From assembly GCA_017962235.1 (NCBI GenBank), contig JAGCVS010000001.1:1-44090 (forward strand): DNA of 44,090 nt, written 5' to 3'. This DNA comes from Bacteroidales bacterium (lineage in GTDB: Bacteria > Bacteroidota > Bacteroidia > Bacteroidales > UBA932). Under the pieces are notes generated by a model. It was not told where the DNA came from. It made no database searches and worked only from the letters and a program-made list of their open reading frames with translations. A program made the translations under genes and the position numbers. Positions within the stretch are counted from its first letter, which is position 1. Each line of letters opens with the position of its first letter. This document shows positions 22,490 to 43,558 of the stretch, piece by piece.

Positions 22490-22493
22490 ACCA

Positions 22494-22523
22494 CAAATTT
22501 AAGAAATGTTTTTACTAAATTTG
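22494..22523. promoter_or_regulatory. Divergent -7 boxes between the flavodiiron gene and the nuclease operon
   Basis: TAAATTTG on the plus strand (22516-22523) and the same octamer on the minus strand (22501-22494) form an inverted repeat with a 14-nt spacer. Both match TAnnTTTG. The plus box gives a leader of about 30 nt for the gene at 22561; the minus box gives almost none for the gene starting at 22489. The symmetry could also be an operator. Confidence 0.5.
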
Positions 22524-22560
22524 AAGTCAGTCCGATAATAAAAACAATACATAAATTAAT

Positions 22561-24507
22561 ATGAAATCATTCAGATTATTATCTCTGGTGATGTGCATGT
22601 CCGCAGTGCTGGCACTTGGCAGTTGCAAGGAGCCGATTGAGGATCCGTACATCCTGATTAACGGAGAAAAGACTCTCTCCATCTCCCAGGACAAGGCAAC
22701 CTTACAAGTATATGTGGCCTCAAACCGGGAGTGGGCGGTACGCATGAACAAAGAAACGGAAGAGTGGATGCAGATAGAGCCTGCCGGCGGCATGCCCAGC
22801 GAGCATGCGGTGCAGGTGACCCTTACAGTGGCTGAGAACATGGGCGCCAACCGCACCGCGGCCATCGAGTTCTACACCGGCACCGCGACGGACATGCTCA
22901 CAGTAATTCAGCAGGGCCCCGACGGCGAGAGCGACGGTGTGAAGGCCATCTCCGTGGCTGAATTCATAGGCAAGGCCGATACCGGCACCTACTATCGACT
23001 TACCGGTGTGGTATCGGGCTTCAATGCCAGCTACTGCAGCTTTGATCTGACCGATGCTACCGGTACGATTTACGTATACTCGGTTACCGAGGCCAGCAAG
23101 GCGGAGTGGAAAGACAAGATTAAGAACGGCGGCACCGTAACGCTGAAGGGCGTGTACAAGTACTACGGCACCAAGCATGAGGTTGTGGAGGCTGTGATTG
23201 AGGAGTTCATCCCCGAAGCAGAAGCTCCCGTTACCACCGCTACCGCAGCCCAGATTATCGCTGCCGGTGTGGAGGGTAACTATCAGATAGCAGAGGCCAC
23301 CATTGTGAACGTGCCTTCTGTGAATACCCTGATAGTGAACGACGGCACCGGATATATGTACGCCTACAAGAGCAAGCACGGCTTTGCAGAGGGCGACGTG
23401 GTTACCGTGAAGGGCAAGGTGGTACTCTACGAGGGCAAGGTGCTCGAATTCGATAACCCTGATATCACAAAGACGGGAGCTGCCATAGTTACACATCCCG
23501 AGCCGGCGGCATGGGGCGCGGATGAGATAGACGGATACTTCTCAGCACCCGTCATTACCGTGAAATATGTGTCCGTTCTGGGTCTGGTGATAAAAGATGA
23601 CAAATACACCAACCTGAGGCCGTTCGGAACCAAGGCGTGCGAGGTGGTATCGCTGTATGTGGGCGATGCGGACCTTACGGCATATGAGAACTGTCCGGTA
23701 AGGGTTACCGGATATGCCTTCACCGCTACCGCAGAAACCAAGAACATCTCCGTGGCTGTGGTTGACATAGTGGAGATCAGCGGCGCACAGTATGTGCTCA
23801 CCGATCCCGCTTCGCTCCTGTGGGGCGCGGACGATGTGGCACCCAAGACGGTGGCGGTGCTCACCTCCGGTACGGATGTGACCGTAGAGGCGGTAGCAGA
23901 GGCGTTTGGCGGCGATGTATGGGCAACAGCCACCGTGAGCGGCAAAACCATCACTATAACTCCCAGCGGTGTCAACACCAGTCAGACTCAGGACAGGACC
24001 GGCGCCTTCAAGGTAACTTCAGACGGCATGTCCATAGTTCTGAATGTGACCCAGAGCAGGGTTCTGGGGGCACATCCGTTCACCAGCAACGTTACCTGGA
24101 AGCTGGGCTCCAGCGCATACGACCATACCACCGGCAACGACACCTCTCCCGGACAGTCGGCAGTGATAAACGGTACCGAGGTGAACGAACTGGTCAAGCT
24201 TGGCACATCGTCAAAGAACGGCGACTTTACCGCAACCATCCCGGCCGGCACCAAGAAGATCGCCTTCTATTCCCTCGGCTGGAAGGGCTCCAGCCCCAAA
24301 CTCAACGTCACTTGCGGCTCCGGCCAGAAGCAGACGTTCTCCATCAAGGCCAACGATGGCGTGGTAAGCAATCCTCCTTACACAATCACCACCAGCGACG
24401 CTGACGCTTACTATGAGGTACAGGTAGACGACGCTTCGGCTACTTCAGTCAAGTTTGAGTCGGAGGGCCGCGTGATAGTATGGGGTATTAACGCATATAA
24501 CGAATAG
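22561..24507 (+). CDS. BACON/OB-fold multidomain surface lipoprotein
   Basis: No catalytic motif; probably a ligand-binding surface lipoprotein. The 648-residue product has a lipobox (C22), a BACON-like domain (about 37-118), an OB-like module (about 130-216) with ISVAEFIG and FDLTDATGTIYVY, a second OB-like segment (about 228-301, VNDGTGYMYAYKSKHGFAEGDVVTVKGKV), a third region (about 320-405), a second BACON-like domain (about 418-498) and a C-terminal beta domain (about 503-648) of unknown type. The first OB-like module is the same type as the tandem repeats of the protein at 37471-40191. First gene of a tight operon with two nucleases and a TonB-dependent receptor, 2 nt before the next start. 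OB folds often bind nucleic acid or oligosaccharide; nucleic acid is inferred here from the neighbours. Confidence 0.75.
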   Translation: MKSFRLLSLVMCMSAVLALGSCKEPIEDPYILINGEKTLSISQDKATLQVYVASNREWAVRMNKETEEWMQIEPAGGMPSEHAVQVTLTVAENMGANRTAAIEFYTGTATDMLTVIQQGPDGESDGVKAISVAEFIGKADTGTYYRLTGVVSGFNASYCSFDLTDATGTIYVYSVTEASKAEWKDKIKNGGTVTLKGVYKYYGTKHEVVEAVIEEFIPEAEAPVTTATAAQIIAAGVEGNYQIAEATIVNVPSVNTLIVNDGTGYMYAYKSKHGFAEGDVVTVKGKVVLYEGKVLEFDNPDITKTGAAIVTHPEPAAWGADEIDGYFSAPVITVKYVSVLGLVIKDDKYTNLRPFGTKACEVVSLYVGDADLTAYENCPVRVTGYAFTATAETKNISVAVVDIVEISGAQYVLTDPASLLWGADDVAPKTVAVLTSGTDVTVEAVAEAFGGDVWATATVSGKTITITPSGVNTSQTQDRTGAFKVTSDGMSIVLNVTQSRVLGAHPFTSNVTWKLGSSAYDHTTGNDTSPGQSAVINGTEVNELVKLGTSSKNGDFTATIPAGTKKIAFYSLGWKGSSPKLNVTCGSGQKQTFSIKANDGVVSNPPYTITTSDADAYYEVQVDDASATSVKFESEGRVIVWGINAYNE

Positions 24508-24509
24508 CG

Positions 24510-25724
24510 ATGAAAACCGGAAATATCATAACCAGAGTGCTGGCTGTATCGCTGTTTGCGGCAGCCGCGCTCTCCTGCGGCCGGAAAGACGAGGTCGAGT
24601 TCAAGGTGGACGTGCGGCACGTGGCGGTGGAGAGCGACCGCGGCACCCAGTTCGTGACGGTCAGTGCCCCTGCCGGACAGGAGTGGACCATCACCCTTAC
24701 AGATGAGAACGGTCAGCCCGTGGACTGGGCGGTGGTGGATCCCGCCTCCGGCGTCGGCACCAGGACTGCCGTCACCATCACCTGGGACCAGAACTATACC
24801 AGTGAGGCACGCACGATAGTGATCACCTGCCGCAGCGATTCCAAGACCAGCAGCGTGAAGGTGGTGCAGGCAGCAAAGCCGGCCGATGCAGTGCTCTTCC
24901 CCGACAAGATTCAGCCCGACCCGGTGCGCAGGTGGATGGAACTTCCCGCTACCAACAACGAGTCGCTTTACTTCATATCCCACCCCAGCAGCACCAGTGA
25001 GACTGCAGGCCGCAACTACAGCTACTACTGGGATGTGGCCAATCTGGTGGCACACTGGGTGGCTTATCCGCTTAACAAGAACCTGATTGGCAGCGGTGGA
25101 CGTACAAATCTGTGGGGTCTGGACCCCAAACTGCCCAAGGACAAGCAGCCATGGCTCTTCTCCGGCTACCGCAGTTCCGCTTCCAGCGGCAACAGCGACG
25201 GCGGCACGCAGTGGTACGACCGCGGCCACCAGATGCCCTCTGCAGACCGTTTGAACTACAGCGATAACATCCAGACCTTCTACGGCACCAACATGACTCC
25301 CCAGATTAACGAGCTCAACAGCAACATCTGGGCGGCCCTGGAGGGGAGCGTGCGCGACTGGTCCAAGAAGTTTGACACTCTGTATGTGGTAACCGGCTGC
25401 GTGATTGACGGCAGCACCCAGTTTGCATACGACAACGAGGGCAAGAAGGTCACCGTTCCTGTGGGTTATTACAAGGCGCTGTTGGGCTACGACAAGAAGC
25501 ACAAGAACGGCATTGCCGCACAGACACAGGGCTATACCGGCGTGGCGTTCTACTTTGAACACAAAGGTTATCCGGACAGTCAGTATATGAACCAGGCCAT
25601 GACCATAGACGAGCTGGAGAAGAAGGTGGGCGAAGATTTCTTTGTGAACCTCCCTTCAGAAATCGGCGAGGTACTGGCCGCCAAGGTGGAATCTACAAAA
25701 GACAACTTCTGGTGGAGTAAATAG
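24510..25724 (+). CDS. DNA/RNA non-specific endonuclease lipoprotein with BACON domain
   Basis: Metal-dependent beta-beta-alpha nuclease of the NucA/Serratia type, which cuts DNA and RNA without sequence preference. The 404-residue product has a lipobox (C23), a BACON-like domain (about 30-120) and the nuclease domain (about 140-395) with the signature YDRGHQMPSADR (DRGH at 237-240, catalytic His240) and the metal-binding Asn region NMTPQINELNSNIWAALE (from 261). The lipid anchor would hold it on the envelope, most likely the outer surface. Starts 2 nt after the preceding gene and ends 2 nt before the next one. Confidence 0.92.
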   Translation: MKTGNIITRVLAVSLFAAAALSCGRKDEVEFKVDVRHVAVESDRGTQFVTVSAPAGQEWTITLTDENGQPVDWAVVDPASGVGTRTAVTITWDQNYTSEARTIVITCRSDSKTSSVKVVQAAKPADAVLFPDKIQPDPVRRWMELPATNNESLYFISHPSSTSETAGRNYSYYWDVANLVAHWVAYPLNKNLIGSGGRTNLWGLDPKLPKDKQPWLFSGYRSSASSGNSDGGTQWYDRGHQMPSADRLNYSDNIQTFYGTNMTPQINELNSNIWAALEGSVRDWSKKFDTLYVVTGCVIDGSTQFAYDNEGKKVTVPVGYYKALLGYDKKHKNGIAAQTQGYTGVAFYFEHKGYPDSQYMNQAMTIDELEKKVGEDFFVNLPSEIGEVLAAKVESTKDNFWWSK

Positions 25725-25726
25725 TT

Positions 25727-26779
25727 ATGAAAAGGATTCTTACAATAGCAGCGGTCTTGCTGCTCTCGGTTGCGTCATTTGCGCAGACCAGGACTTATGT
25801 AATAGGGTTCTACAACCTTGAGAACCTCTTTGACATATACGACGACCCCGCCAAGAACGACCAGGAGTATCTCCCTGACGGAGCCAACAACTGGACCCAG
25901 GCCAAGTACGAGAAGAAACTCGCCAACATGGCCAAGGTAATCCGCTCCATGAAAGACGACAACGGCCGCTATCACACGATTCTGGGTGTGAGCGAGATTG
26001 AGAACCGAATGGTGCTGGAAGACCTCGTGGCACAGCCGGCTATCGCAGACGCCAACTATCAGATAGTGCACTACGACGGCCCCGACCGCCGCGGCGTGGA
26101 CGTGGCGCTGCTCTACAAGCCGGAGCAGTTCAACTTCATAGAGTCAGAATCGATTCCGTTCACCTTTACTGGGAGCGAGATTGATTTCAGCGACACCGAT
26201 ACGGATTATTTCCGCACCCGCGACATCCTTATGGTGCACGGCACCATCGCCGGCGAGCATTTCGCCTTCTATGTGATGCACCTTCCGTCGCGAGTGGGCG
26301 GCAAGGGGGGCAACCTCCGCGCCCGCGGTGCAGAAATCGCCTATCAGCATTCGCTGCGTATGATGGAGAAGTATCCCGGCATCAAGATAGTGGCAATGGG
26401 TGATATGAACGACGACCCGTTTGACGAGAGTATGGCGGTTTATTATCACGGCCGCGAAACTCTTGAAGAGGTGGGTGAGCAGGATTACTTCAATCCCTTC
26501 CTGAAGATGGTGAAGGACGGCATGGGCTCGCTTTGCTATCAGGGACAGTGGAGCATATACGACCAGCTTCTGGTGAACAGGGACCTGGCGCTCGCCCCGG
26601 AAGGCGGCCTGAAATTGATGGCGATAAACAAGGGTTACTACGGCCGTATCTATAAGAAGCGCTTCATGACCACCAAGAGCGGTCAGTACAAGGGCTATCC
26701 GCTCAGGACATTCTCCCAGGGAGGCTTTATCAACGGCTACAGCGACCATTTCCCCACCTATATAGTAATCAGCAAATAA
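25727..26779 (+). CDS. Exported endonuclease/exonuclease/phosphatase family protein
   Basis: EEP-fold enzymes are metal-dependent phosphodiesterases (DNase I, exonuclease III, phosphatases). The 350-residue product has a Sec signal peptide ending at about residue 19-20 (ASFAQ) and the family motifs in order: FYNLENLFD, VSEIEN, GVDVALLYKP, MGDMNDDPFD and a C-terminal YSDHFPTYIV, with the acidic and His residues of the active site present. No lipobox, so periplasmic or secreted. Second nuclease-type enzyme of the operon; it could trim products of the DRGH nuclease or act as a phosphodiesterase. Gaps of 2 nt upstream and 8 nt downstream. Confidence 0.88.
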   Translation: MKRILTIAAVLLLSVASFAQTRTYVIGFYNLENLFDIYDDPAKNDQEYLPDGANNWTQAKYEKKLANMAKVIRSMKDDNGRYHTILGVSEIENRMVLEDLVAQPAIADANYQIVHYDGPDRRGVDVALLYKPEQFNFIESESIPFTFTGSEIDFSDTDTDYFRTRDILMVHGTIAGEHFAFYVMHLPSRVGGKGGNLRARGAEIAYQHSLRMMEKYPGIKIVAMGDMNDDPFDESMAVYYHGRETLEEVGEQDYFNPFLKMVKDGMGSLCYQGQWSIYDQLLVNRDLALAPEGGLKLMAINKGYYGRIYKKRFMTTKSGQYKGYPLRTFSQGGFINGYSDHFPTYIVISK

Positions 26780-26787
26780 CAGCAACG

Positions 26788-29736
26788 ATGATAAAACGTA
26801 TTACATTATCAATAATCCTGCTTTTCGCCGCTCTTTCGCTGTGGGCGCAGATTCCCACGGGCGGTGTCAAGGGCGTGGTTGTGAGCCGTGACGGGCGTGT
26901 CCCGGTGCCCGGCGCTGAGGTCGTCCTGAGTCAGGGCGGCGTCCAGATTGCCGGCTGCACCACGGGCGACCAGGGCGCATTCCTGATAGAGGCGCTCGCA
27001 AACGGCATGTACTCGATGACCATCACCGCCAACGGATTCGTCAGCACAGAAGTGAATGTCACAGTGGATGACGGATTCGTGAAGGATATGATGCGCATCT
27101 CGATGACTCCGGAGCTGATGGTGGCGGAGGTGGACGACTCCAGTTTTGTGGAGTTTGACATGGACGATTCCGGCTACACCGACAACCCCACTATCATGTA
27201 CGGCACCACCGACGTGTTTACCAGCGTTGCGGGCTACGGCTTCAGCTCCATCCGCTTCAAGAACCGCGGCTACGAGAGCGAGAGCCAGGACGTTTATCTG
27301 GCGGGAGTCAAGATGAACGACGCCATTACCGGATATTCCCCTTTCAGCCTTTGGAGCGGTCTCAACGAGGCGATGCGCAGCAAGGAGACCACCATCGGCA
27401 TGGAGTCGGCTGAATATGGACTGGGCCACTTTAACGGCACCACCAATCTGCTTGGCAACCCATCTGCGGTGCGTCCCGGATGGCGGTTCAGCCTGCTTAG
27501 CAACAGCGCGCTGTACCGTTTGCGCCTGATGGCCAACTACGCCTCCGGCGATCTGGACAACGGCCTCTCTTATGCAATCAACGTATCAGTACGTGCCGGC
27601 GGCAACGACTGGATAGACGGTGTCTACTACAAGAACTTCTCTTACTATGCAGGTATTGAGAAAAAGTTCAACGACAACAGCCGTCTGGCTCTGTTCACAT
27701 TTGCAAATACCGGCCAGAGGGGTGCCCAGAATGCTTCCACCCAGGAGGTTTACGATTTGATGGGTACCAACCTGTATAACTCCAACTGGGGCTATCAGAA
27801 CGGCGTGGTGCGCAACGCCCGCGTGCGCAAGACCTTCGAACCCGTCACGGTGCTGAAGTACACCGCGTCTCCCACCGACAAGCTGGATGTGGCGGCCACG
27901 CTGCTGTACCGCTGCGGATGGAACGGCTACACTGCCCTTGACTGGTACGATGCCCCCGACCCGCGCCCCGACTACTATCGCAACCTGCCCAGCTATTTCT
28001 ACATGGACGACGATGATTACAACCGTCTCAACGAGGGCAAGTACAACTGGGCGCTGGAGTCCTGGTCCAACCATTCTCGCGACTATGCGAACTATCAGCA
28101 CATCAACTGGGACCGTCTCTACAACGTGAACTACAATCAGGCCGACGGCCGCAGCAAGTATGCTCAGGAGCAGCGTCACGTGGACCAGCGCGACCTTAAC
28201 CTGGCGGCATCCATGCAGTGGTATCCCACCGACCAGTTCACTCTGCAGGCGGGCTTAAGCGGAAAGATAAACCGCACGGAGAACTACAAGAAGATCGCTG
28301 ACCTGCTGGGCGGACAGTATTACCTGAATATCGACCAGTTCGCAGAGCGCGACTTTGCCAGCAATGAGGCGCTGATTCAGAATGACCTGGATTACTTCCT
28401 GGCCAACGGCAGCGCTGAGAAGGTTGTAAAGGGCGGCAAATACGGCTACGACTATTATGCGCATGTGCGTAAGGGCAATCTCTGGGTCAACGGCATCTAC
28501 ACTGTGGGCGGCCTCACCGCATCGCTGGGCGCGAGCCTGGGATATGAGACCTTCTGGCGCGAAGGTCTGATGCGCAAGGGTCTGTTCGCCGGCCTGGACG
28601 ACAACGGAAGGGAGATAACCTATCAGGGCAAGACCCTCACCACCTACGACAACAAGGGGCAAGTGATATCGTCAAAGGGTAATTCTGACAAATGCAAGTT
28701 CCTGACTTATTCCACAAAGATGTCGCTGGCATACCTGATGACGGGTGGCCACCGCTTCAGCCTGAACGCAGGTTACTTTGCAGACGCTCCCACCTTTACA
28801 GACGCATTCGTATCGCCCCGTACCCGCAACACCATCATTGATGGCCTCACCACCCAGAAGACCATGTCGGCAGATGTCAACTATCAGTGGGGCGGCAACG
28901 GCTACAGCGTGCGTGTAACCGGATACTGGACCAAGATCAAAGACCAGACCGACCTGATGAGCGTCTACGACGACTCTCAGCAGTCTTTCGTCAACTTTGC
29001 GATGACCGGCATAGAGCAGCGTCACCTCGGCCTGGAAGTGGGCGCCAAAATGCCCCTCCCGGTGCAGGGCCTCTCGCTGTCGGGCGTGCTGAGCCTTGGC
29101 GAATACATCTACACCTCCAATCCCACCATGACGATGACCATAGACAACAGCGCGGATGTCATCTATGAGAACGTGGAGATTCCTTACTGGCAGGGCACTC
29201 CCAAGTATCGTCATGTTAATTACAACGGGGAGAGGGTGATAGAGTTTGACGTCCGCGGCGATGCCGTGATAGACGGTTATACAAAGCACCACGTCCCCTC
29301 CACACCTGAGCTGGCAACGGCGCTCGCGCTTAACTATCGCACCCGTTCTTACTGGTTCTTCGAACTCACCGGGCAGTTCTTTGCCAAGTCATATCTCGAC
29401 ATGAATCCGCTCTACCGCACAAACATCGCGGTGGGCGGTGCAGACGGCATCATCACGCCGGAGGAGGTCGAGTATATGACAGAGCAGGAGGAGTTCGACC
29501 CCGCGTTCCTGCTCAACCTGAGCATCGGCAAATCGTGGTATATCCACCGCAAATACAACATCGGCTTCTCGCTGAATGCGCAGAACCTGCTCAACGAGCT
29601 CAATGTGAAGACGGGCGGCTATGAGCAGAACCGCCTGATCTCCAGCCTTGGCAAAGACCGCTACTACCGGTTCAATTCCAAGTACTTCTACATGCCTGGA
29701 GCCAATTATATGTTGAACCTTTATTTCAGATTCTAA
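26788..29736 (+). CDS. TonB-dependent receptor without SusD partner
   Basis: Outer-membrane active transporter. The 982-residue product has a signal peptide (about 1-21), a carboxypeptidase regulatory-like domain (about 24-110), a plug region with FSSIRFKNRGYESESQDVYLAGVKMND, and a C-terminal barrel closing in LNLYFRF with terminal Phe. The typical SusC signature and a SusD gene are absent, so this is not a standard polysaccharide importer. Its place between an exported phosphodiesterase and a DUF5689-like lipoprotein suggests uptake of oligonucleotides, nucleotides or another phosphodiester product; this is inference from context only. Confidence 0.9.
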   Translation: MIKRITLSIILLFAALSLWAQIPTGGVKGVVVSRDGRVPVPGAEVVLSQGGVQIAGCTTGDQGAFLIEALANGMYSMTITANGFVSTEVNVTVDDGFVKDMMRISMTPELMVAEVDDSSFVEFDMDDSGYTDNPTIMYGTTDVFTSVAGYGFSSIRFKNRGYESESQDVYLAGVKMNDAITGYSPFSLWSGLNEAMRSKETTIGMESAEYGLGHFNGTTNLLGNPSAVRPGWRFSLLSNSALYRLRLMANYASGDLDNGLSYAINVSVRAGGNDWIDGVYYKNFSYYAGIEKKFNDNSRLALFTFANTGQRGAQNASTQEVYDLMGTNLYNSNWGYQNGVVRNARVRKTFEPVTVLKYTASPTDKLDVAATLLYRCGWNGYTALDWYDAPDPRPDYYRNLPSYFYMDDDDYNRLNEGKYNWALESWSNHSRDYANYQHINWDRLYNVNYNQADGRSKYAQEQRHVDQRDLNLAASMQWYPTDQFTLQAGLSGKINRTENYKKIADLLGGQYYLNIDQFAERDFASNEALIQNDLDYFLANGSAEKVVKGGKYGYDYYAHVRKGNLWVNGIYTVGGLTASLGASLGYETFWREGLMRKGLFAGLDDNGREITYQGKTLTTYDNKGQVISSKGNSDKCKFLTYSTKMSLAYLMTGGHRFSLNAGYFADAPTFTDAFVSPRTRNTIIDGLTTQKTMSADVNYQWGGNGYSVRVTGYWTKIKDQTDLMSVYDDSQQSFVNFAMTGIEQRHLGLEVGAKMPLPVQGLSLSGVLSLGEYIYTSNPTMTMTIDNSADVIYENVEIPYWQGTPKYRHVNYNGERVIEFDVRGDAVIDGYTKHHVPSTPELATALALNYRTRSYWFFELTGQFFAKSYLDMNPLYRTNIAVGGADGIITPEEVEYMTEQEEFDPAFLLNLSIGKSWYIHRKYNIGFSLNAQNLLNELNVKTGGYEQNRLISSLGKDRYYRFNSKYFYMPGANYMLNLYFRF

Positions 29737-29740
29737 GGAT

Positions 29741-30835
29741 ATGAAAAGGACATTATTGATATTCGCACTTGCGGCCGCACTGGTCTCCTGCACATCTCTC
29801 TACGAGGAGTTCGAACCGGTGTTCACCGGCAAATACGAGGCCCCCACTGCCGCCAAGAAGGTGGCGCTGGAGCCTAACATCACCATCGCCGACCTGTGCA
29901 AGATGTACAAGACGGCCATGCCCTGGAACGTAGACCAGAATCTGATTATCGCAGGCAAGGTCTCCACCACAGACAAGCCGGGCAACTTTTACAAGTCTCT
30001 CTACATCCAGGACGAGACGGGCGGCATAGAACTCAAGCTGGGGCGCAACGGTTTGTACAATTACTATCAGGAGGGGCAGATGCTGTATGTCCGCTGCTTT
30101 GGCCTCACGCTGGGCATGTACGGCTATAAAAGCGGCAACTATGGTGGTCAGGGTATGGTGCAGCTGGGCTATGAAGACCCCACCGGCTCTTATGAGACAT
30201 CGTATCTGGAGGCGCCCTATCTGATAGACTCCCACATTTTCGCCGGCGAGACCGGGGATAAGGTGGTGCCGGCCGTGATTACCGAGGCGCAGCTCCCCGG
30301 CAAGAACGATACCCAGGCTACCAATGAATATGTCGGGAAACTGGTTACCCTCAAGGGTCTCACATATGGCAACCAGGTGTTCTGCTTGATTTACATCAAC
30401 TCCAACAAAGATAAGAGTATGTCGGCAAACCGCATTTTCCTCTCAGATGAAACATGGGGCGTAACCACCTGGGCCATGAGCGAGAACAAGTTCAAGGAGT
30501 ACTTTGATTCCGGAGTGTGGGATTCAGTCAAGATTGGCAATGCGGGCGACTACAACTACGGTACTGTGGGCGAGCCCAACGACCCCGGTTTTGCCACCAG
30601 CAGGGCGGAGATCCGCGCCCATTCGGCTGCATACTCGGTGAGCCAGTACTTCAAGATGGGCAATACTGACATTGCGCTGCGTACCAGCGGCTATTCCAAG
30701 TTCGGTGACAACGAAATCCCCAAATCGGTGCTGGAAGGCAAAGCCACCGTGGATTTAACCGGCGTGCTCACCCTGTATCAGGGCACAATCCAGTTAATCG
30801 TCAATTCTCTGGACGATATTGTGGTTCACGAATAG
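29741..30835 (+). CDS. DUF5689-like (OB-fold) surface lipoprotein
   Basis: The 364-residue product has a lipobox (C17) and two beta-rich halves. The first (about 45-140) contains LIIAGKVSTTDKPGNFYKSLYIQDETGGIELKLG and LYVRCFGLTLG, the pattern of the DUF5689 family as I remember it; the second (about 170-362) contains EYVGKLVTLKGLTYG and ends in VLTLYQGTIQLIVNSLDDI, again OB-like. No catalytic residues. It follows the TonB-dependent receptor by 4 nt, the place a SusD-like capture protein takes in sugar loci, so it may be the receptor's substrate-binding partner. The gene ends 9 nt before the convergent BACON lipoprotein gene. Confidence 0.75.
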   Translation: MKRTLLIFALAAALVSCTSLYEEFEPVFTGKYEAPTAAKKVALEPNITIADLCKMYKTAMPWNVDQNLIIAGKVSTTDKPGNFYKSLYIQDETGGIELKLGRNGLYNYYQEGQMLYVRCFGLTLGMYGYKSGNYGGQGMVQLGYEDPTGSYETSYLEAPYLIDSHIFAGETGDKVVPAVITEAQLPGKNDTQATNEYVGKLVTLKGLTYGNQVFCLIYINSNKDKSMSANRIFLSDETWGVTTWAMSENKFKEYFDSGVWDSVKIGNAGDYNYGTVGEPNDPGFATSRAEIRAHSAAYSVSQYFKMGNTDIALRTSGYSKFGDNEIPKSVLEGKATVDLTGVLTLYQGTIQLIVNSLDDIVVHE

Positions 30836-30844
30836 AATGCTGAT

Positions 30845-31447
30845 TTACCGGTACTGGTAAAAACTGAAAGAATCAGAGTCACCGTCGATTGCAAAAATGA
30901 CGGTGATTTTTCTTACTGCTCCGGTGGTGTTGGCGGGAACGTTGACATTCACGGTAAAGCTGCCGATACCCTCTCCGGCGGGCTGGAATGTGACGCCTGG
31001 AGTGTCACTAGAGGCTGTCCACGGAGCATTGGCGGTAACATAGAGTTGCAGTATGCCGCCTTCTGCCGGCAGGGTGGGAGCCTCTCCCGATACGGAAATG
31101 TACGGCTTGTATCCCTGGGTGATATATGCGTATTTATAAGACGACCCGGCGGTGCTGCGGCAGTAGAACTGCACCTTTACGCAACTGGTGGTCCAGTTTT
31201 CTGTGGCGGGGATATCTACTCTGACAACATCGTCACCCACACCGTTTACCTTTGATACGGTGGCGGGGCACCCTTCTTCCAGCACCACTTTCCACGGCAA
31301 TTCCGTCATGATGGTGACATCAACAGTGCCGCCGGTATAGGGCACATAATTGAGGCTGGGGGTGATTCTTATGGTGGGGGAGAAGTTCTCCGCGCAGGAA
31401 CAGAGCACCGCCAGCGCTGCAAGCAATATCGGAAGGGCTTTTTTCAT
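30845..31447 (-). CDS. Lipoprotein with two BACON-like domains
   Basis: 200 residues, starting MKKALPILLAALAVLCSC (lipobox C18), then two BACON-like beta domains (about 25-110 and 115-200) with the telltale WKVVLEEG and PWTASSDTPGV strands. I chose the ATG at 31447; an in-frame GTG at 31453 lies too near the -7 box. No enzymatic motif. BACON domains usually mediate carbohydrate or surface binding. Convergent with the nuclease operon and divergent from another BACON lipoprotein, so it may have an accessory role there, but that is only positional. Confidence 0.75.
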   Translation of the reverse strand: MKKALPILLAALAVLCSCAENFSPTIRITPSLNYVPYTGGTVDVTIMTELPWKVVLEEGCPATVSKVNGVGDDVVRVDIPATENWTTSCVKVQFYCRSTAGSSYKYAYITQGYKPYISVSGEAPTLPAEGGILQLYVTANAPWTASSDTPGVTFQPAGEGIGSFTVNVNVPANTTGAVRKITVIFAIDGDSDSFSFYQYR

Positions 31448-31455
31448 ATACACTG

Positions 31456-31501: not shown

Positions 31502-31873
31502 ATGGGAAAGCGGCTCATATCGGCATTCGGGGCAGTTGCGGCGGTGGCCGTGGTTGTTGCGTGCATCTGCTTGTCGTCTTGCGAGAAGTATATCCTGCCG
31601 CGTCTGGAGTGCGACGTGGACACTATCTGGGCCCCCGTCTCCGGCGGCTTGTACGATGTGACGCTGTCTACCAATGTAAAATGGATGTTCGACAGCAACA
31701 CCATTCCGGAGTGGGTCACCATTGATGTTAAAAATGGCGAGAGCGACTATCAGGATGCCATTTATCCGCTAAAAGTTGAGGTCGGCCCCAACACCGCCGG
31801 CGAAGCCCGAGAGGCCGTCATGGTCTACTCCTCCGCCACCATCTCCAAAAAGCTTGTCGTAGAACAGAAATAA
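31502..31873 (+). CDS. Small lipoprotein with one BACON-like domain
   Basis: 123 residues. Signal with lipobox LSSC (C27), then one BACON-like domain (about 30-123) with WAPVSGGLYDVTLSTNVKW and a closing AVMVYSSATISKKLVVEQK. Function unknown; such short proteins look like detached binding domains. The stop codon at 31871-31873 is directly followed by a tRNA-Gly 3' remnant and a palindromic terminator. Part of a cluster of BACON proteins with the neighbours at 30845 and 22561. Confidence 0.7.
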   Translation: MGKRLISAFGAVAAVAVVVACICLSSCEKYILPRLECDVDTIWAPVSGGLYDVTLSTNVKWMFDSNTIPEWVTIDVKNGESDYQDAIYPLKVEVGPNTAGEAREAVMVYSSATISKKLVVEQK

Positions 31874-37470: not shown

Positions 37471-40191
37471 TTAGTTGGTAGCGTCTGCCTTCTTGTAGAG
37501 CTGAACAACGGTCTGGTTGTTGTTGCCGTAGCAAGCAAAGCGGGGGCTGTTCTTGTTCCACTGGAGGTTGCGGACAGCGGTCTCTGCATTGAGGATCACC
37601 ACATGGTCAGTATCATAGGTGATGTTCCAGTTTGCCTTTGCAGACTCTTCGTCTGCGTTGTTGAGAGCGTTGCCGGAATTCCAAGCGAAGAACTTGTCGC
37701 CGAACTTGATGGTGTAAGCACCTGCTGTAACGGTTGCGGGAGCAATCACTATCTGGCAAGCATCCACATCTGCACTGCCGGCAATGGTGCCATTGTCTAT
37801 GGTGACGGTGATGTAGCTGCCAATGGTGCCGCTGAAGCCGGAGAATGCGGCATTGATGCCGTCCTGGTCGCAAACCAGCAGGTAAGTGCCGCTCCAGTCA
37901 GAAGGAGCGGAAGTCACCTTGGTGTAGCTTGCACCGGAAGGAGTAACTACTACTGGCTCGCTCTCCAGTTTCTCAAGGAACCATGCATTCAGCACCTCGA
38001 TCTTGTCGCCGTAAGAGCCGCGGTAGCCGCGGATCTTGATCTTGTCACCTTCCTTGAGGCCGAGGCTTGCATAGCTCTTGTCGTTCTTAGCGCCATAGCC
38101 CAGCTCGGTAGCAGTAAGGCCGTATACGTAAACTGTACCGGTCTCGTCGGTGAGATCAAAGTTGCCGTAGGTGGTGTTGATGCTGCCGCCGATGGTTCCC
38201 ACCAGTTCGTAAACCTGAGAGTCGGACTCGGGAGCTGCGTTGAACTCTGCAACTGTTACAGCAAGGGGACCGCTGGACAGTTTCTCAATGAACCAAGCGT
38301 TCAGCACCTCGATCTTGTCACCGTAGGAGCCGCGATAACCGCGGATCTTGATCTTGTCGCCCTCTTTGAGGCCAAGGCTTGCAAAGCTCTTGTCGTTCTT
38401 TGCGCCGTAGCCCAGTTCGGTAGCGGTAAGACCGTATACGTAAACTGTGCCGGTCTCGTCGGTGAGGTCAAAGTTACCGTAGGTGGTGTTGATGGTGCCG
38501 CCGATGGTGCCTACCAGTTCGTAAACCTGAGAGTCAGATTCGGGAGCTGCGTTGAACTCTGCAACGGTAGCAACCACAGGGCCCACGTTCATCTTCTCGA
38601 GGAACCAAGCGTTCAGCACCTCGATCTTGTCACCGTAGGAGCCGCGGTAGCCGCGGATCTTGATCTTGTCACCTTCCTGCAGGCCAAGGCTTGCGAAGCT
38701 CTTGTCGTTCTTTGCGCCGTAGCCCAGCTCGGTAGCGGTCAGACCATATACGTAAACCGTACCGGTCTCGTCGGTGAGGTCAAAGTTACCGTAAGTGGTG
38801 TTGATGGTGCCGCCGATGGTGCCCACCAGCTCGTATATCTGAGTGTCAGACTCGGGAGCTGCGTTGAACTCTGCAACGGTAGCGTGGATAGGACCGCTGG
38901 CCAGTTTCTCGAGGAACCACGCGTAAACAACCTGCTCCTTGCCGTTGTAAGAGCCGCGGTAACCGCGGATCTTGATAACGTCGCCCTCGTTGAGGCCGAG
39001 GCTTGCGAAGCTCTTGTCGTTCTTGCCGCCGTAACCCAGTTCTGTAGCTGTCAGACCGTATACATATACAGTACCGGTAGCATCGGTGAGGTCAAAGTTA
39101 CCGTATGTGGTGTTGATTGTGCCGCCGATGGTACCTACGAGGTCGTACATAACCACGTCGGACTCGGGTGCAGCAAGGAACTCGGCCACAGTTACGGACT
39201 GAATGCTGCCTGCCTGCTTTACAGTGAAATCTACGGAAGAAGACTCACCCTTGTCGTTCTTGGTGGTGACGGTAATCACTCCTGTTCTGGGGATGCCGGT
39301 GTTCTCTTTTGCGCGGAAGTGCATGGTGAGTTTGTCGCCATCCTTGTCGCAGCCCAGGTATTCAATCCAGTCGGAATCGAATGCAACATTCAGGTCGCTG
39401 CCCTTGACTGTGGCAGTAATGTCGAATGCCTGACCCTCCTTGGGAACATCCACACCGGTCTCTGTAATCTCTACGAGGGATTTCTGGTGAGATACGTAAA
39501 CGGCGTTTACAATCTCCCAGGTGCCGCTGTAGAGCTTCATCTCGTTGGCCTTGATGGTGAGCTGGTCGCCCTGTGCAAGACCCTTGTCTTTCCAGCACTT
39601 CTGTGCTTCAAGAGCCTCGTTGAGCAGACCGTATACATAGATGGTTCCGGTCTCGTCTGTCAAGTCAAAGTTACCATAGTTGGTGTTAACCACGCGGGTA
39701 ATGGTACCTGTGATGATGTAGGGATCGGTGTTGGCGCCAAGGGCAAGGTAATCCTTAATGCTGATTACGGTACCATCGCCTGTGCCGGGGCCGGTCTGAT
39801 TGGGATCGGCAGCCTGGGTGATGGTGAACTCGGACAGAGGAGTGCTTTCAAGGTCGATGGTGGTGCAGCCCACATCGCCCACGGCGCTGTAGAAGCCCAC
39901 CTTGCCGGTGCGCTCACCGCCGTCGTTGGGAGCAACGGTGATCTTGACAGCCTGGTCGCGGGTGCCGCTGGCAGGGGTTACGGTGATCCAGGCGGGAGCA
40001 CTTACAACCCATGCGCCGTCGGCAGTGACGTTTGCGTCGTAGCTCTGACCTGCGGCGGGAACGGCGTTGGCGGCGTTGGGAGCAACGGTGACGGTGGTTG
40101 CCATCGGTGCTACGGGGTAGTCATAGGTACAAGCTGCAAGGCCTGCAAGGCAGATCACAGCTGTAAGGAGTATGTTGAATATCTTTTTCAT
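37471..40191 (-). CDS. Surface lipoprotein with BACON domains and tandem OB-like repeats
   Basis: 906 residues, lipobox C21. Domains in order: BACON-like (about 33-128), a divergent OB-like module (about 142-240), BACON-like (about 242-329), four near-identical OB-like repeats of 104 residues (334-437, 438-541, 542-645, 646-749), and a C-terminal beta-trefoil-like or FAW-type domain (about 755-902) with SAPSDWSGTYLLVCDQDG. Each repeat starts TVAEF, carries NTTYGNFDLTDETGTVYVYG and IKIRGYRGSYG. The same module occurs once in the nuclease-operon lipoprotein at 22561. No catalytic motif; likely a long binding stalk on the cell surface. It follows an Oar-like TonB-dependent receptor by 19 nt. Ligand unknown. 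Confidence 0.82.
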   Translation of the reverse strand: MKKIFNILLTAVICLAGLAACTYDYPVAPMATTVTVAPNAANAVPAAGQSYDANVTADGAWVVSAPAWITVTPASGTRDQAVKITVAPNDGGERTGKVGFYSAVGDVGCTTIDLESTPLSEFTITQAADPNQTGPGTGDGTVISIKDYLALGANTDPYIITGTITRVVNTNYGNFDLTDETGTIYVYGLLNEALEAQKCWKDKGLAQGDQLTIKANEMKLYSGTWEIVNAVYVSHQKSLVEITETGVDVPKEGQAFDITATVKGSDLNVAFDSDWIEYLGCDKDGDKLTMHFRAKENTGIPRTGVITVTTKNDKGESSSVDFTVKQAGSIQSVTVAEFLAAPESDVVMYDLVGTIGGTINTTYGNFDLTDATGTVYVYGLTATELGYGGKNDKSFASLGLNEGDVIKIRGYRGSYNGKEQVVYAWFLEKLASGPIHATVAEFNAAPESDTQIYELVGTIGGTINTTYGNFDLTDETGTVYVYGLTATELGYGAKNDKSFASLGLQEGDKIKIRGYRGSYGDKIEVLNAWFLEKMNVGPVVATVAEFNAAPESDSQVYELVGTIGGTINTTYGNFDLTDETGTVYVYGLTATELGYGAKNDKSFASLGLKEGDKIKIRGYRGSYGDKIEVLNAWFIEKLSSGPLAVTVAEFNAAPESDSQVYELVGTIGGSINTTYGNFDLTDETGTVYVYGLTATELGYGAKNDKSYASLGLKEGDKIKIRGYRGSYGDKIEVLNAWFLEKLESEPVVVTPSGASYTKVTSAPSDWSGTYLLVCDQDGINAAFSGFSGTIGSYITVTIDNGTIAGSADVDACQIVIAPATVTAGAYTIKFGDKFFAWNSGNALNNADEESAKANWNITYDTDHVVILNAETAVRNLQWNKNSPRFACYGNNNQTVVQLYKKADATN
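37945..39192 (-). repeat. Four tandem 312-bp repeats inside the OB-repeat gene
   Basis: Four in-frame units of exactly 312 bp (104 codons) that are nearly identical at DNA level, differing mostly at scattered third positions. The unit nearest the N-terminus (38881-39192) is the most diverged. Such repeats can change copy number by recombination without breaking the frame. Confidence 0.9.
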
Positions 40192-40210
40192 ATCGTTTGT
40201 CCTCCCTTAA

Positions 40211-43200
40211 TTAGAATGTGATTCTTGCACCAACCTGGCAGCGCCATCTTGAATAGAAGTCACTCAGGGAGATTGTGTAAGGACTGTACTGATAAGTAGG
40301 AGTAGCGTTGCCTGCTGCATCTACGGATACGGAGGTAACCTTGAGGATGCGGAGGTTGTTGGTGCTGCCGTAGTTGGAGCCCCATTCGCGGTTGATCATG
40401 TTGCCGATGTTCATCACGTCTGCGAACAGCTGGAGCTTGGTGCCCCTTGCGCGGTCAAAGATGAAGTCCTGGCCAAAGTGCAGGTCAAAGTGATGCTCGA
40501 AAGGAGCGATGCCTGCATAGCGCTCTGAGTACTGTCCGCGGTGGCTGCGCAGATAGAGGTCGTCGCGGATGTAGTTCTCAAACTTGGCTGCATCGCCGGC
40601 GGTGGCCCATTTCATCTGGGGAACTTCTTCTGCCGTAGGGATGTACATCAGGGAGTTGCCGGTGAAACCGTCACCGTTGAAGTCGGCAGACTCGTTGTAG
40701 GTGTAGCAGTAGCGCTGGCCGCTCTCACCGGTGTAGGTGAGGGAGATGTTGGATGCCAGACGGCCTGCCAGGTAAGGCTTGGAGTTGTAAGAAACAACGG
40801 CCATTACGCGGTGAGGCTTATCAAACAGGGAGTAGCTGAGCTCGTCGCTGTTGGAATCCACGGAGTAGTTGTATTTCCAGTTGGAATATGCAACTGAAGA
40901 GGTACCATCGTTCACGCTGTATGCGTGGCCGTAGGTGTAGGATGCCATCAGGTTGAGGCCGCACTCGAACGCTTTCTCCAGCTTGCCGCTCAGGGAGTAG
41001 GTGTAGCCCCTGTTGGTGTTGCTCAGGGCAACGATGGTGGAGTATGCACTGGACATCTGAGTGTAGTAAGGAGCCGCTGCGCTTGCGGGATTTGCCGCTG
41101 CTGCGTCTGCGTTCACTGCATATACCTTGTGGTTCTCGTTGGTGATAGCCAGGTTCTTGAAGTATACGTTGTTGAGCGTCTTGCTGAACAGGGCGTCCAG
41201 GGTGAGGTTCCAGCCGCCGTCCCACTTCTTGTCCAGACCGAGGTTAACACGGAACACCTGAGGATACTTGAAGTTGCGGTTCATGGTATTGATGGTTGCA
41301 CCGCTGTTGCTTGCCTGCAGGATACCGCTCTTGATAAAGGTGTTGTAAGGGTCGGAAGTAAGGATGTTGTCTACACCCTTCTCGTGAGCTGCTGCAATGA
41401 GGTTCGAGCCCTTGACCTGTACCGATTTAGCCTCCATACCGGTGTTGTTGTATGCATTGGAGAGCCATACGAACGGTACGCGGCCGGTGAACAGGCCGGC
41501 ACCTCCGCGGAGAACTGCGGAGTGTTCATCGTCCATGTACCAGCGGAAACCGATTCTGGGCGAGAGAAGTATGCTGGCCTTGGGAATCTCGCCTACGCGT
41601 GCGTTGTAAAGCTCGGGATAGGTGTTCTGGAAGGTGTCGGCATACATGTTGAATCCGGGATTCTCGGTGGGCTTGTTAAGCAGCAGCGGCATGTCGGCGC
41701 GGATACCGTAGGTGAGGGTGAAGTCGCGGTTGGGCTTCCACTCGTCCTGTGCATAGAGGCCGAACTGTGCAGCCCAGGTGGTTGCGCCCCAGGTGGGGTT
41801 GCCGCCGGTGAGCTCGGGATCTGCGTAGTTGTAGTAGTAAGTGTCCACGTTGTCCTCGAAGAAGTTGGCCACGCTGGTGTACTTATACTCGCCGAATGCA
41901 TACTGGCGGAATATGTTGTAGAAGCGGAACAACTCGTTGTGGGTACCCAGGGTAATGTTGTGCTTGCCGGCAAAGATTGAGAAGTTGTCGGTGAAGGTGT
42001 AAGCATCGGAGTGCATTGCATTCGCACCGGAAGAGTACTCGGTACCGAGGTTGATGGTGTAGGTGTCGCCGGTGATGTAGATGTTGGCGCCCTGATAAGG
42101 GATCTCGCGGTGGTCGCGTACCAGCACGGCGGTAGCGCGGGCCTCGTTGGACATCATCTCATTGATGCGGCTGTTGAGCTCGAGTACAAAGGTGTTGGTG
42201 TAGTCCACCATCTTGTAAGACGAGTTGTTGAAGTAGTAGGTATACCTGCCTGATCCGTACTGGTCTGCATAAGCGTGTGCAAACTGGTAGCGGAACATGA
42301 GTTTGTTATCTGTGTTGATGTTCCAGTCCAGACGGAGAAGGGCGTTGATGGAGAGGTCCTCTACCTGATGGGGAGTGTAGCTCTCTGAGAAGTTCTCGCC
42401 GGGAGCGTACTTGGACTGATAGCGGGCAAGGATTGCATCTGCCAGGGCGGTGTTGAAGGTGGTACCGTCAAATGCCTGGCCGGTGAGGTTGGTGGTCTGG
42501 CCGTTGACTACAACGGGGAAAGCGACCTCCTTGTAGATATCGGCACCGTCCACGCCCACGGGAGCGTTGTTGCTGAAGTAGCCGTTGTAAGTGCCTGCGC
42601 CGGGGTTGTATACATTGGGACGGCTCTTCTTGTAGTATTCGCCGCTGGCAAAGAAGAAGAGTTTATCCTTGATGATGGGACCGCCCAGGGTTGCGCCGGC
42701 ACGGAGGGTCAGCTGCTCTTCATATTTGGTACGCTCAGCGCCCTCTGCGATGGGGCCAGCGGTGGTACCGATGAAGTCCTGGTTGTTATAGTAAGCGTAT
42801 GCGGAACCGTGCAGCTTGTTGGTACCGGACTTGGTGATGGCGTTCATCGCACCGCCGGTAAAGCCGCTCTGGCGTACGTCAAACGGAGCCACAACCACCT
42901 GGATTTCCTCAATTGCATCCAGGGAGATAGGCTGGGCGCCGGTCTGGCCGCCGTTGGTGCCGGAAGCTGCAAGACCGAATGCATCGTTGGCGATGGCACC
43001 GTCTATCTGGAAGCTGTTATAACGGTTGTTACTGCCGGCAAACGAGATACCGCCGCTCTTGCTTACGGATGCCTGAGGGGTGAACTTCACGATATCGTAG
43101 ATACTGCGGTCCACGGTAGGCATCGTCTCTACTGTCTGACGGTTGAAGTGGTCACCGGCACCCGTCTTGGTGGCGTTGAAAGACTTGTCGCTCACAACGT

Positions 43201-43558
43201 ACACGGCGTCCAGCTGCTCGGAGCTCTTCATGGTGAGGTTGAGCTCGTACGGGTCGCCCAGCTTGAGGGTGACATCGGTGATGTTAACGGTTTCCATTCC
43301 GATGAAAGAAACCTCGATAACGTACGGACCGCCGATACGCATACCGTTGATTATGAAACGGCCGTCTGTGTTGGCCGCGGTAGCGTACTGTGTTCCGGAA
43401 GGTGTGTGGGTAGCAATCACGGCCGCACCTGCGAGCGGATCACCATCGGCATCGGTGATGAGACCGTTCATAGATGACGTTGTGACCTGTGCATAGGCCC
43501 CCACACCAACAAAGACAATCGCCATAATGGCGACTAATCGCTTAATTAGTTGATTCAT
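40211..43558 (-). CDS. Oar-like TonB-dependent receptor
   Basis: Outer-membrane active transporter or adhesin-type receptor. The 1115-residue product has a signal peptide (about 1-23), a carboxypeptidase regulatory-like domain (about 27-112, MNGLITDADGDPLAGAAVIATH), a plug domain with SFQIDGAIANDAFGL and FDVRQSGFTGGAMNAITKSGTN (Oar-type pattern), and a large barrel ending in RITF with terminal Phe. No SusD gene is adjacent; instead a lipoprotein of OB-like repeats follows after 19 nt, so the pair probably works together as receptor and surface-binding protein. Substrate not readable from the sequence. Confidence 0.93.
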   Translation of the reverse strand: MNQLIKRLVAIMAIVFVGVGAYAQVTTSSMNGLITDADGDPLAGAAVIATHTPSGTQYATAANTDGRFIINGMRIGGPYVIEVSFIGMETVNITDVTLKLGDPYELNLTMKSSEQLDAVYVVSDKSFNATKTGAGDHFNRQTVETMPTVDRSIYDIVKFTPQASVSKSGGISFAGSNNRYNSFQIDGAIANDAFGLAASGTNGGQTGAQPISLDAIEEIQVVVAPFDVRQSGFTGGAMNAITKSGTNKLHGSAYAYYNNQDFIGTTAGPIAEGAERTKYEEQLTLRAGATLGGPIIKDKLFFFASGEYYKKSRPNVYNPGAGTYNGYFSNNAPVGVDGADIYKEVAFPVVVNGQTTNLTGQAFDGTTFNTALADAILARYQSKYAPGENFSESYTPHQVEDLSINALLRLDWNINTDNKLMFRYQFAHAYADQYGSGRYTYYFNNSSYKMVDYTNTFVLELNSRINEMMSNEARATAVLVRDHREIPYQGANIYITGDTYTINLGTEYSSGANAMHSDAYTFTDNFSIFAGKHNITLGTHNELFRFYNIFRQYAFGEYKYTSVANFFEDNVDTYYYNYADPELTGGNPTWGATTWAAQFGLYAQDEWKPNRDFTLTYGIRADMPLLLNKPTENPGFNMYADTFQNTYPELYNARVGEIPKASILLSPRIGFRWYMDDEHSAVLRGGAGLFTGRVPFVWLSNAYNNTGMEAKSVQVKGSNLIAAAHEKGVDNILTSDPYNTFIKSGILQASNSGATINTMNRNFKYPQVFRVNLGLDKKWDGGWNLTLDALFSKTLNNVYFKNLAITNENHKVYAVNADAAAANPASAAAPYYTQMSSAYSTIVALSNTNRGYTYSLSGKLEKAFECGLNLMASYTYGHAYSVNDGTSSVAYSNWKYNYSVDSNSDELSYSLFDKPHRVMAVVSYNSKPYLAGRLASNISLTYTGESGQRYCYTYNESADFNGDGFTGNSLMYIPTAEEVPQMKWATAGDAAKFENYIRDDLYLRSHRGQYSERYAGIAPFEHHFDLHFGQDFIFDRARGTKLQLFADVMNIGNMINREWGSNYGSTNNLRILKVTSVSVDAAGNATPTYQYSPYTISLSDFYSRWRCQVGARITF

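Follow-up and report, generated by a model that had tools for sequence, protein, structure and literature searches.

The five plus-strand genes at positions 22561-30835 of a 44,090-nt stretch of DNA from a Bacteroidales bacterium (contig JAGCVS010000001.1 of GCA_017962235.1, positions 1 to 44,090; the whole stretch is termed the window) form an operon that probably encodes a TonB-dependent system for the import of nucleic acid. The genes are labelled A to E in their order of transcription. The core of the operon, comprising an EEP-fold phosphodiesterase (C), a TonB-dependent receptor (D) and a DUF5689 lipoprotein (E), is already known and recently described; the five-gene form is this core together with a DRGH-type nuclease (B) and a BACON/OB-fold lipoprotein (A). 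A preliminary description, made from the sequence of the window, had proposed a nucleic-acid substrate, perhaps a source of phosphate, nucleosides or nitrogen, and import by a receptor that is not of the SusC type. The substrate and the import are supported by the correspondence of D, E and (by position) C with RS04915, RS04920 and RS04910 of Riemerella anatipestifer, the first two of which have been shown by others to be essential for natural transformation (available text of PMC8459023). The same description knew of no experimentally described system with exactly this gene set; a transformation relative of the core has in fact been described in Riemerella, while the exact five-gene form was not met in the titles and abstract starts searched. 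The genome carrying the window (G000) is 2.07 Mb in 22 contigs and 99% complete.

All five genes start with ATG in the open reading frame calls, and the intergenic gaps measured on the window are 2, 2, 8 and 4 nt, just as first described. Such tight spacing is by itself unremarkable, with several same-strand neighbour pairs elsewhere in the window equally close. The families assigned to the five genes at the outset were all recovered in the Pfam scan. Gene A (22561..24507, 648 aa) encodes a surface lipoprotein with a BACON domain (2.3e-11) and an OB fold (tRNA_anti-codon in two stretches, 2.4e-08). Gene B (24510..25724, 404 aa) encodes a DRGH-type DNA/RNA non-specific endonuclease lipoprotein (Endonuclease_NS, 7.3e-35) with a BACON match of 3e-05 at 24.4 bits, slightly below the cut-off of 25. 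It carries the DRGH motif at 237 and an N...E stretch from 270 on, and matches the solved nuclease 2o3b in sequence comparison (2.5e-15). The product of gene C (25727..26779, 350 aa) is an exported EEP-fold phosphodiesterase, with an Exo_endo_phos_3 match of 9.6e-94 covering domain positions 2-311 of 311. The stretches SEIEN, HLPS, GDMND, YDQ and SDH are present as expected for an EEP enzyme, and we take them to be catalytic; a sequence search for C among solved structures gave no match at 0.01.

Gene D (26788..29736, 982 aa) encodes an outer-membrane protein with a CarboxypepD_reg domain (2.3e-12) and matches to the TonB barrel (3.7e-04) and Plug (0.072) that are both below their cut-offs. 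Its model is a plugged beta-barrel with the fold of an ordinary TonB-dependent receptor and no nearest subgroup. Compared by sequence with solved chains, the N-terminal carboxypeptidase-like domain alone is matched, one of the chains coming from a SusC homologue that resembles D in this domain only. Grouping with siderophore, vitamin or glycan receptors, raised at the outset as the outcome that would speak against the proposal, was not seen in sequence, and the fold does not set D apart from such proteins; both parts of this outcome rest on the matches to solved chains and on fold comparison.

Gene E (29741..30835, 364 aa) encodes a DUF5689 lipoprotein (3.2e-40). In its model, residues from about 30 to 178 probably form an OB fold, for which the best structural rows are OB-bearing nucleic-acid binders. 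By sequence, solved structures gave two weak hits for E (E 0.35 and 0.85), and its score against NCBIfam M949_1556 is 56.6 bits, far below the cut-off of 475; the literature available under that name gives no function. Judged by eye, lipobox-like cysteines mark A, B and E as likely lipoproteins, and Sec-type starts mark C and D as likely exported proteins. Among the control genomes, DUF5689 matches above the cut-off also occur in Bacillus subtilis; the protein concerned may be YhcR, a secreted nuclease/nucleotidase, in which case the domain would have a link to nucleic acids.

According to the available text of PMC8459023, transformation of R. anatipestifer drops from 5.4e-5 to below the detection limit of ~4.2e-10 after markerless deletion of either RA0C_RS04915 or RA0C_RS04920. 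There RS04915 is given as a carboxypeptidase-like receptor, RS04920 as a protein with DUF5689 and DUF5017, RS04870 as RecA and RS04895 as ComEC. The same text reports that pilus homologues were not found in Riemerella, so that its authors suppose a new machinery, and confines the receptor homologue to Flavobacteriaceae. A published primer matches two Riemerella genomes (G621 and G623) exactly and a third (G622) with a single mismatch, and each of the six Riemerella genomes has one high-scoring full-length receptor together with lower-scoring paralogues. The locus of G623 starts with RecA, a DinB-type gene and three genes resembling succinate dehydrogenase subunits (Pfam identifies SdhA; the two beside it are judged from their size and start). 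It continues with ComEC (Competence and DUF4131), a 145-aa gene, a carboxyl transferase, the divergent EEP gene, the receptor and the gene for a protein with DUF5689 and DUF5017. Counted in steps of five, this gene order fits the numbering of the paper, by which the receptor corresponds to RS04915 and the DUF5689 gene to RS04920; by position, RS04910 would be the EEP gene.

The proteins of the two loci are homologous. D aligns with the Riemerella receptor at 26% over 1020 columns (BLASTP, 7e-87), E with the DUF5689 protein at 29% over 227 columns (8e-16) and C with the EEP neighbour at 30% over 408 columns (3e-59). D belongs to the RS04915 family both by BLASTP and by its place in a single clade (see below), and a DUF5689 lipoprotein gene lies directly 3′ of it. 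The two loci thus share a receptor with a carboxypeptidase-like N-terminus, a DUF5689 gene next to it and an adjoining EEP gene. They differ in that the EEP gene of Riemerella is divergent (the tables of PMC8459023 that were available show no EEP mutant), in that a profile search found neither a DRGH nuclease nor a BACON/OB lipoprotein near the Riemerella loci, and in the extra DUF5017-type part of the Riemerella DUF5689 protein.

The receptor was followed through 119 genomes of the order, 79 of which gave a hit at 1e-10; 54 (G000 included) were taken by eye as carrying the family. The order-level set contains 54 loci outside the window, with one genome (G078) represented twice; in L035 (G030) a stop codon interrupts the receptor, whose larger piece was used unaltered. 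A draw of 198 genomes from the class gave 39 family members judged by eye (one split across two contigs) and two fragments, and 25 neighbourhoods were taken, three of them from the window's own order. A set of named loci comprises the best 80 of 590. Its query was led by a Chryseobacterium sequence, so the set leans towards Chryseobacterium and its kin, and by title these best 80 are mostly Flavobacteriaceae and Weeksellaceae. The controls are 15 tier-2 loci of a paralogous receptor family, chosen from many; a sixteenth paralogue, from Riemerella, figures in the receptor tree and the charge test alone. Profiles for scanning the neighbourhoods were built from the order-level loci and iterated, so that distant nucleases or OB proteins may escape them.

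A DUF5689 gene adjoins the receptor in 52 of the 54 order loci (directly 3′ and on the same strand), in 24 of the 25 class loci, in all of the best 80 of 590 named loci and in all six Riemerella genomes. The corresponding counts for an EEP gene no more than 3.5 kb from the receptor are 36/54, 20/25, 71/80 and 6/6. In the order set 34 of the 36 EEP genes are on the strand opposite to the receptor, and six of the 18 order loci lacking the gene have <1.5 kb of contig upstream. Neither partner is present at any of the 15 paralogue loci (0/15 for each). The DRGH nuclease is found within 9 kb at six of the 54 order loci and three of the 25 class loci, and at none of the best 80 of 590 named loci, the six Riemerella loci or the 15 paralogues. 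Among the loci examined, the profile found homologues of A at the corresponding position in L069, L070 and L154 alone, and the counterpart in L070 matches DUF5689 in Pfam but neither BACON nor OB at 0.01. Among the same loci, the one-strand order A-B-C-D-E occurs only in the window, in G008 (of the same family), in G059 and in G190. By these counts, what is conserved is the trio of EEP, receptor and DUF5689 genes, to which A and B have been added in a few lineages. The earlier expectation that all five families would be conserved neighbours therefore has to be narrowed to these three, the nuclease and the BACON/OB lipoprotein being lineage-limited. Because the neighbourhood of C, D and E is kept across genomes against 0/15 in the paralogous receptor family, the association is above chance, and a chance neighbourhood was rejected.

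In a receptor tree of 59 rows the family of 42, including the window and Riemerella, forms one side of a branch with a Shimodaira-Hasegawa-like approximate likelihood ratio test (SH-aLRT) support of 100. The other side comprises the 16 paralogues and a second receptor of the window. The family extends beyond Flavobacteriaceae into the order of the window and other groups of the class. In a tree of ten receptor-linked and 21 unlinked DRGH nucleases, nine of the linked proteins fall in one subclade (support 93/84) that also contains four unlinked nucleases, with L085 placed apart; receptor linkage requires at least four changes on this tree. The linked nuclease gene is upstream in some genomes and 3′ of the DUF5689 gene in others, and since its position varies in this way the association with the receptor is not one frozen operon. 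Within family f59, the receptors of G059 and G190 are separated in the tree from those of G255 and G286, and the nuclease is placed differently, which hints at transfer or an old duplication.

The assignment of the operon to nucleic-acid import is thus supported by the homology and synteny of D, E and C with the Riemerella locus, by the conserved receptor-DUF5689-EEP neighbourhood against 0/15 in paralogues, by the single receptor clade, by the TonB-dependent receptor fold, by the probable OB fold of E and by the occurrence of DRGH nuclease genes, in differing arrangements, next to the receptor. In the mechanism that we propose, the OB-fold lipoproteins A and E would capture DNA or RNA on the cell surface, where the DRGH nuclease B would cut it. 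C may then trim the ends or cut again, as its family and motifs suggest. Strands or fragments would be moved by D into the periplasm, driven by TonB, with E positioned like the SusD-like lids of glycan systems. The import step is suggested by the fold of D together with the effects of tonB mutation on Riemerella transformation, which is lower in both tonBA and tonBB mutants (available text of PMC8383284).

The combination of surface lipoproteins, surface enzymes and a TonB-dependent importer is like that of SusCD-type polysaccharide utilization loci. Unlike these, the operon has no SusD-family hit, no glycanase family and no SusC-type NCBIfam hit. A Pfam search gave no SusD family at 0.1 in the five operon proteins or the two flanking proteins, and no carbohydrate-active enzyme was found in the operon with Pfam or NCBIfam, the enzyme families being nuclease and EEP only. 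A SusCD-type glycan locus was ruled out by the absence of SusD and glycanase families. The pairing of receptor and surface lipoprotein also differs from that of the BtuB-BtuG type, in that the lipoprotein and enzyme partners come from other families and the alignment shows 14% identity. Nucleases of the EndA/NucA type serve DNA uptake, and resemble B as DRGH family enzymes of the cell surface that are encoded next to genes for DNA uptake. B differs from them in being a lipoprotein with a BACON domain, in its outer-membrane operon and in its presence at a minority of loci. Extracellular nucleases and DNA use are reported in marine Bacteroidota such as Lutibacter (PMC8289736), in a paper whose available text does not contain the word TonB.

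It is possible, if somewhat doubtful, that the operon is instead a natural-transformation machine as in Riemerella, with D and E passing whole strands to ComEC and with B and C making ends or single strands, as EndA does during uptake in pneumococcus. ComEC was found in 113 and DprA in 114 of the 119 genomes of the order, counting as present the sub-cut-off hits for ComEC of G091 and DprA of G114. HHH_3 was uninformative as a marker of the Riemerella HHH protein, giving hits in 117/119 genomes with the best in ~700-aa frames resembling another protein. The genome of the window has DprA (231 bits), which together with the requirement for both homologues in Riemerella (PMC8459023, as available) fits transformation. 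Its ComEC match (L264:2689-3738) and that of G008 (L265:2226-3347) each meet one in-frame stop, yet the frames are still open over 349 and 373 aa, respectively. Against transformation, the Competence match of these two proteins ends at 235/270 and DUF4131 is absent, whereas in the other four of the six ComECs scanned (partly selected for short frames) the match ends at 264-266. In G059, where the five genes stand in the same order, ComEC is 731 aa long and matches both Competence and DUF4131. A DUF4131 match is also missing in G111, G113 and G087, so that its loss is weak evidence and is shared beyond the family of the window. Of the six order genomes with no ComEC hit, four carry the receptor, although these are drafts and assembly gaps could explain some of them. 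Transforming DNA, moreover, should not survive a non-specific nuclease at the surface.

EEP superfamily enzymes also act on lipids and sugars, and the receptor might import another phosphodiester or phosphate ester, such as a phospholipid head group, a cyclic nucleotide or an inositol phosphate, the Riemerella phenotype being an indirect effect of nutrition. The dependence of R. anatipestifer transformation on phosphate, peptone and iron, with the tonBB effect ascribed to iron, would fit this (PMC8383284, as available). We nevertheless regard it as unlikely: the fall from 5.4e-5 to <4.2e-10 in both deletion mutants far exceeds the roughly 100-fold effect of iron chelation that PMC8383284 reports in its available text, and OB folds and a DRGH nuclease are encoded in the same operon. 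Matrix clearing is another known role of surface nucleases. That those of the window degrade invading or biofilm DNA, with the receptor as an unrelated neighbour, is very improbable given the conservation of the EEP-receptor-DUF5689 set in the class, by which the receptor is not a chance neighbour.

Several observations weigh against nucleic-acid import by the operon. A and B are missing at the six Riemerella loci and the best 80 of 590 named loci, so the role given to them is guilt by association. The model of E has a mean predicted local distance difference test (pLDDT) score of 64, and Foldseek gives no match for it at E <= 0.001. All five proteins are acidic overall (isoelectric points 4.7 to 5.7), and the share of conserved positive charge in the receptor, 0.56 (0.45-0.69 in subsamples), is not clearly higher than the 0.47 of the paralogues. 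Neither competence gene clearly tracks the receptor: ComEC is present in 50/54 carriers and 63/65 non-carriers (p 0.41), and DprA in 54/54 and 60/65 (p 0.06). PMC8459023 presents its data as transformation frequencies, and its available main text nowhere contains the word 'complement'. In the available text of PMC8383284 the authors attribute the tonBB effect to iron, and transformation of R. anatipestifer falls without phosphate or peptone. In R. columbina, by contrast, it rises under peptone or phosphate restriction, and the authors suggest DNA as food (available text of PMC7965970). Since the two species respond oppositely, the argument from nutrients cuts both ways. If the operon does import nucleic acid, the material is slightly more likely to be food (phosphate, nucleosides) than genetic material in the lineage of the window, because ComEC is cut short and the operon has two extra degradative or binding parts; both uses may apply.

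How DNA is taken up in Bacteroidota that have no recognized pilus is a question of mechanism that this receptor family may help to answer. If our interpretation is correct, the trait of DNA uptake reaches past Flavobacteriaceae to the order of the window and others of the class, the EEP enzyme is a frequent third partner that is directly testable, and the lineages with the extra nuclease allow DNA as food to be separated from DNA as genes. To our knowledge nucleic acid would be a new class of substrate for TonB-dependent receptors. A literature search of titles and the starts of abstracts did not find the EEP gene as the usual neighbour, the reach into other orders or the five-gene form. A broader proposal, whose chances we would place a little short of even, is that Bacteroidia have a class-wide DNA importer based upon a TonB-driven receptor and an OB-fold lid rather than a pilus and secretin. 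The EEP enzyme would be its standing partner, and it would serve transformation or feeding according to lineage, the window having a feeding version with an extra nuclease and binding lipoprotein.

The operon is preceded by a divergent intergenic stretch of 71 nt (22490..22560, strand unassigned), across which lies a flavorubredoxin-type gene. From its position this stretch is the likely promoter region; a search of the window for the Bacteroidota-type promoter consensus gave four matches, none of them within it. Beginning 9 nt past the operon end there is a lipoprotein gene in convergent orientation whose BACON match is below the cut-off (30845-31453, minus strand), followed shortly by a gene for a small protein with a BACON match (31502-31873, plus strand). 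About 7 kb from the operon, the minus-strand region 37471-43558 encodes the second receptor of the window (1115 aa, CarboxypepD_reg and OMP_b-brl_4) and, after it, a 906-aa lipoprotein with BACON and OB domains that was also caught by the iterated profile of gene A. This may be another pair of OB lipoprotein and receptor.

At seven of the other loci (L053-L055, L061, L062, L083 and L084) the DUF5689 gene is followed by a trio of genes of ~245, 450 and 120-170 aa. By eye, those of L061, L083 and L084 look like a polyprenol-phosphate glycosyltransferase, a dihydroorotase and a small lipoprotein. Chryseobacterium and its kin have two divergent versions of the receptor, one with 63-96% identity to the query (L159-L178) and the other with 45-48% (L179-L183, L221 and L237), and the DUF5689 partner scores higher beside the second version.

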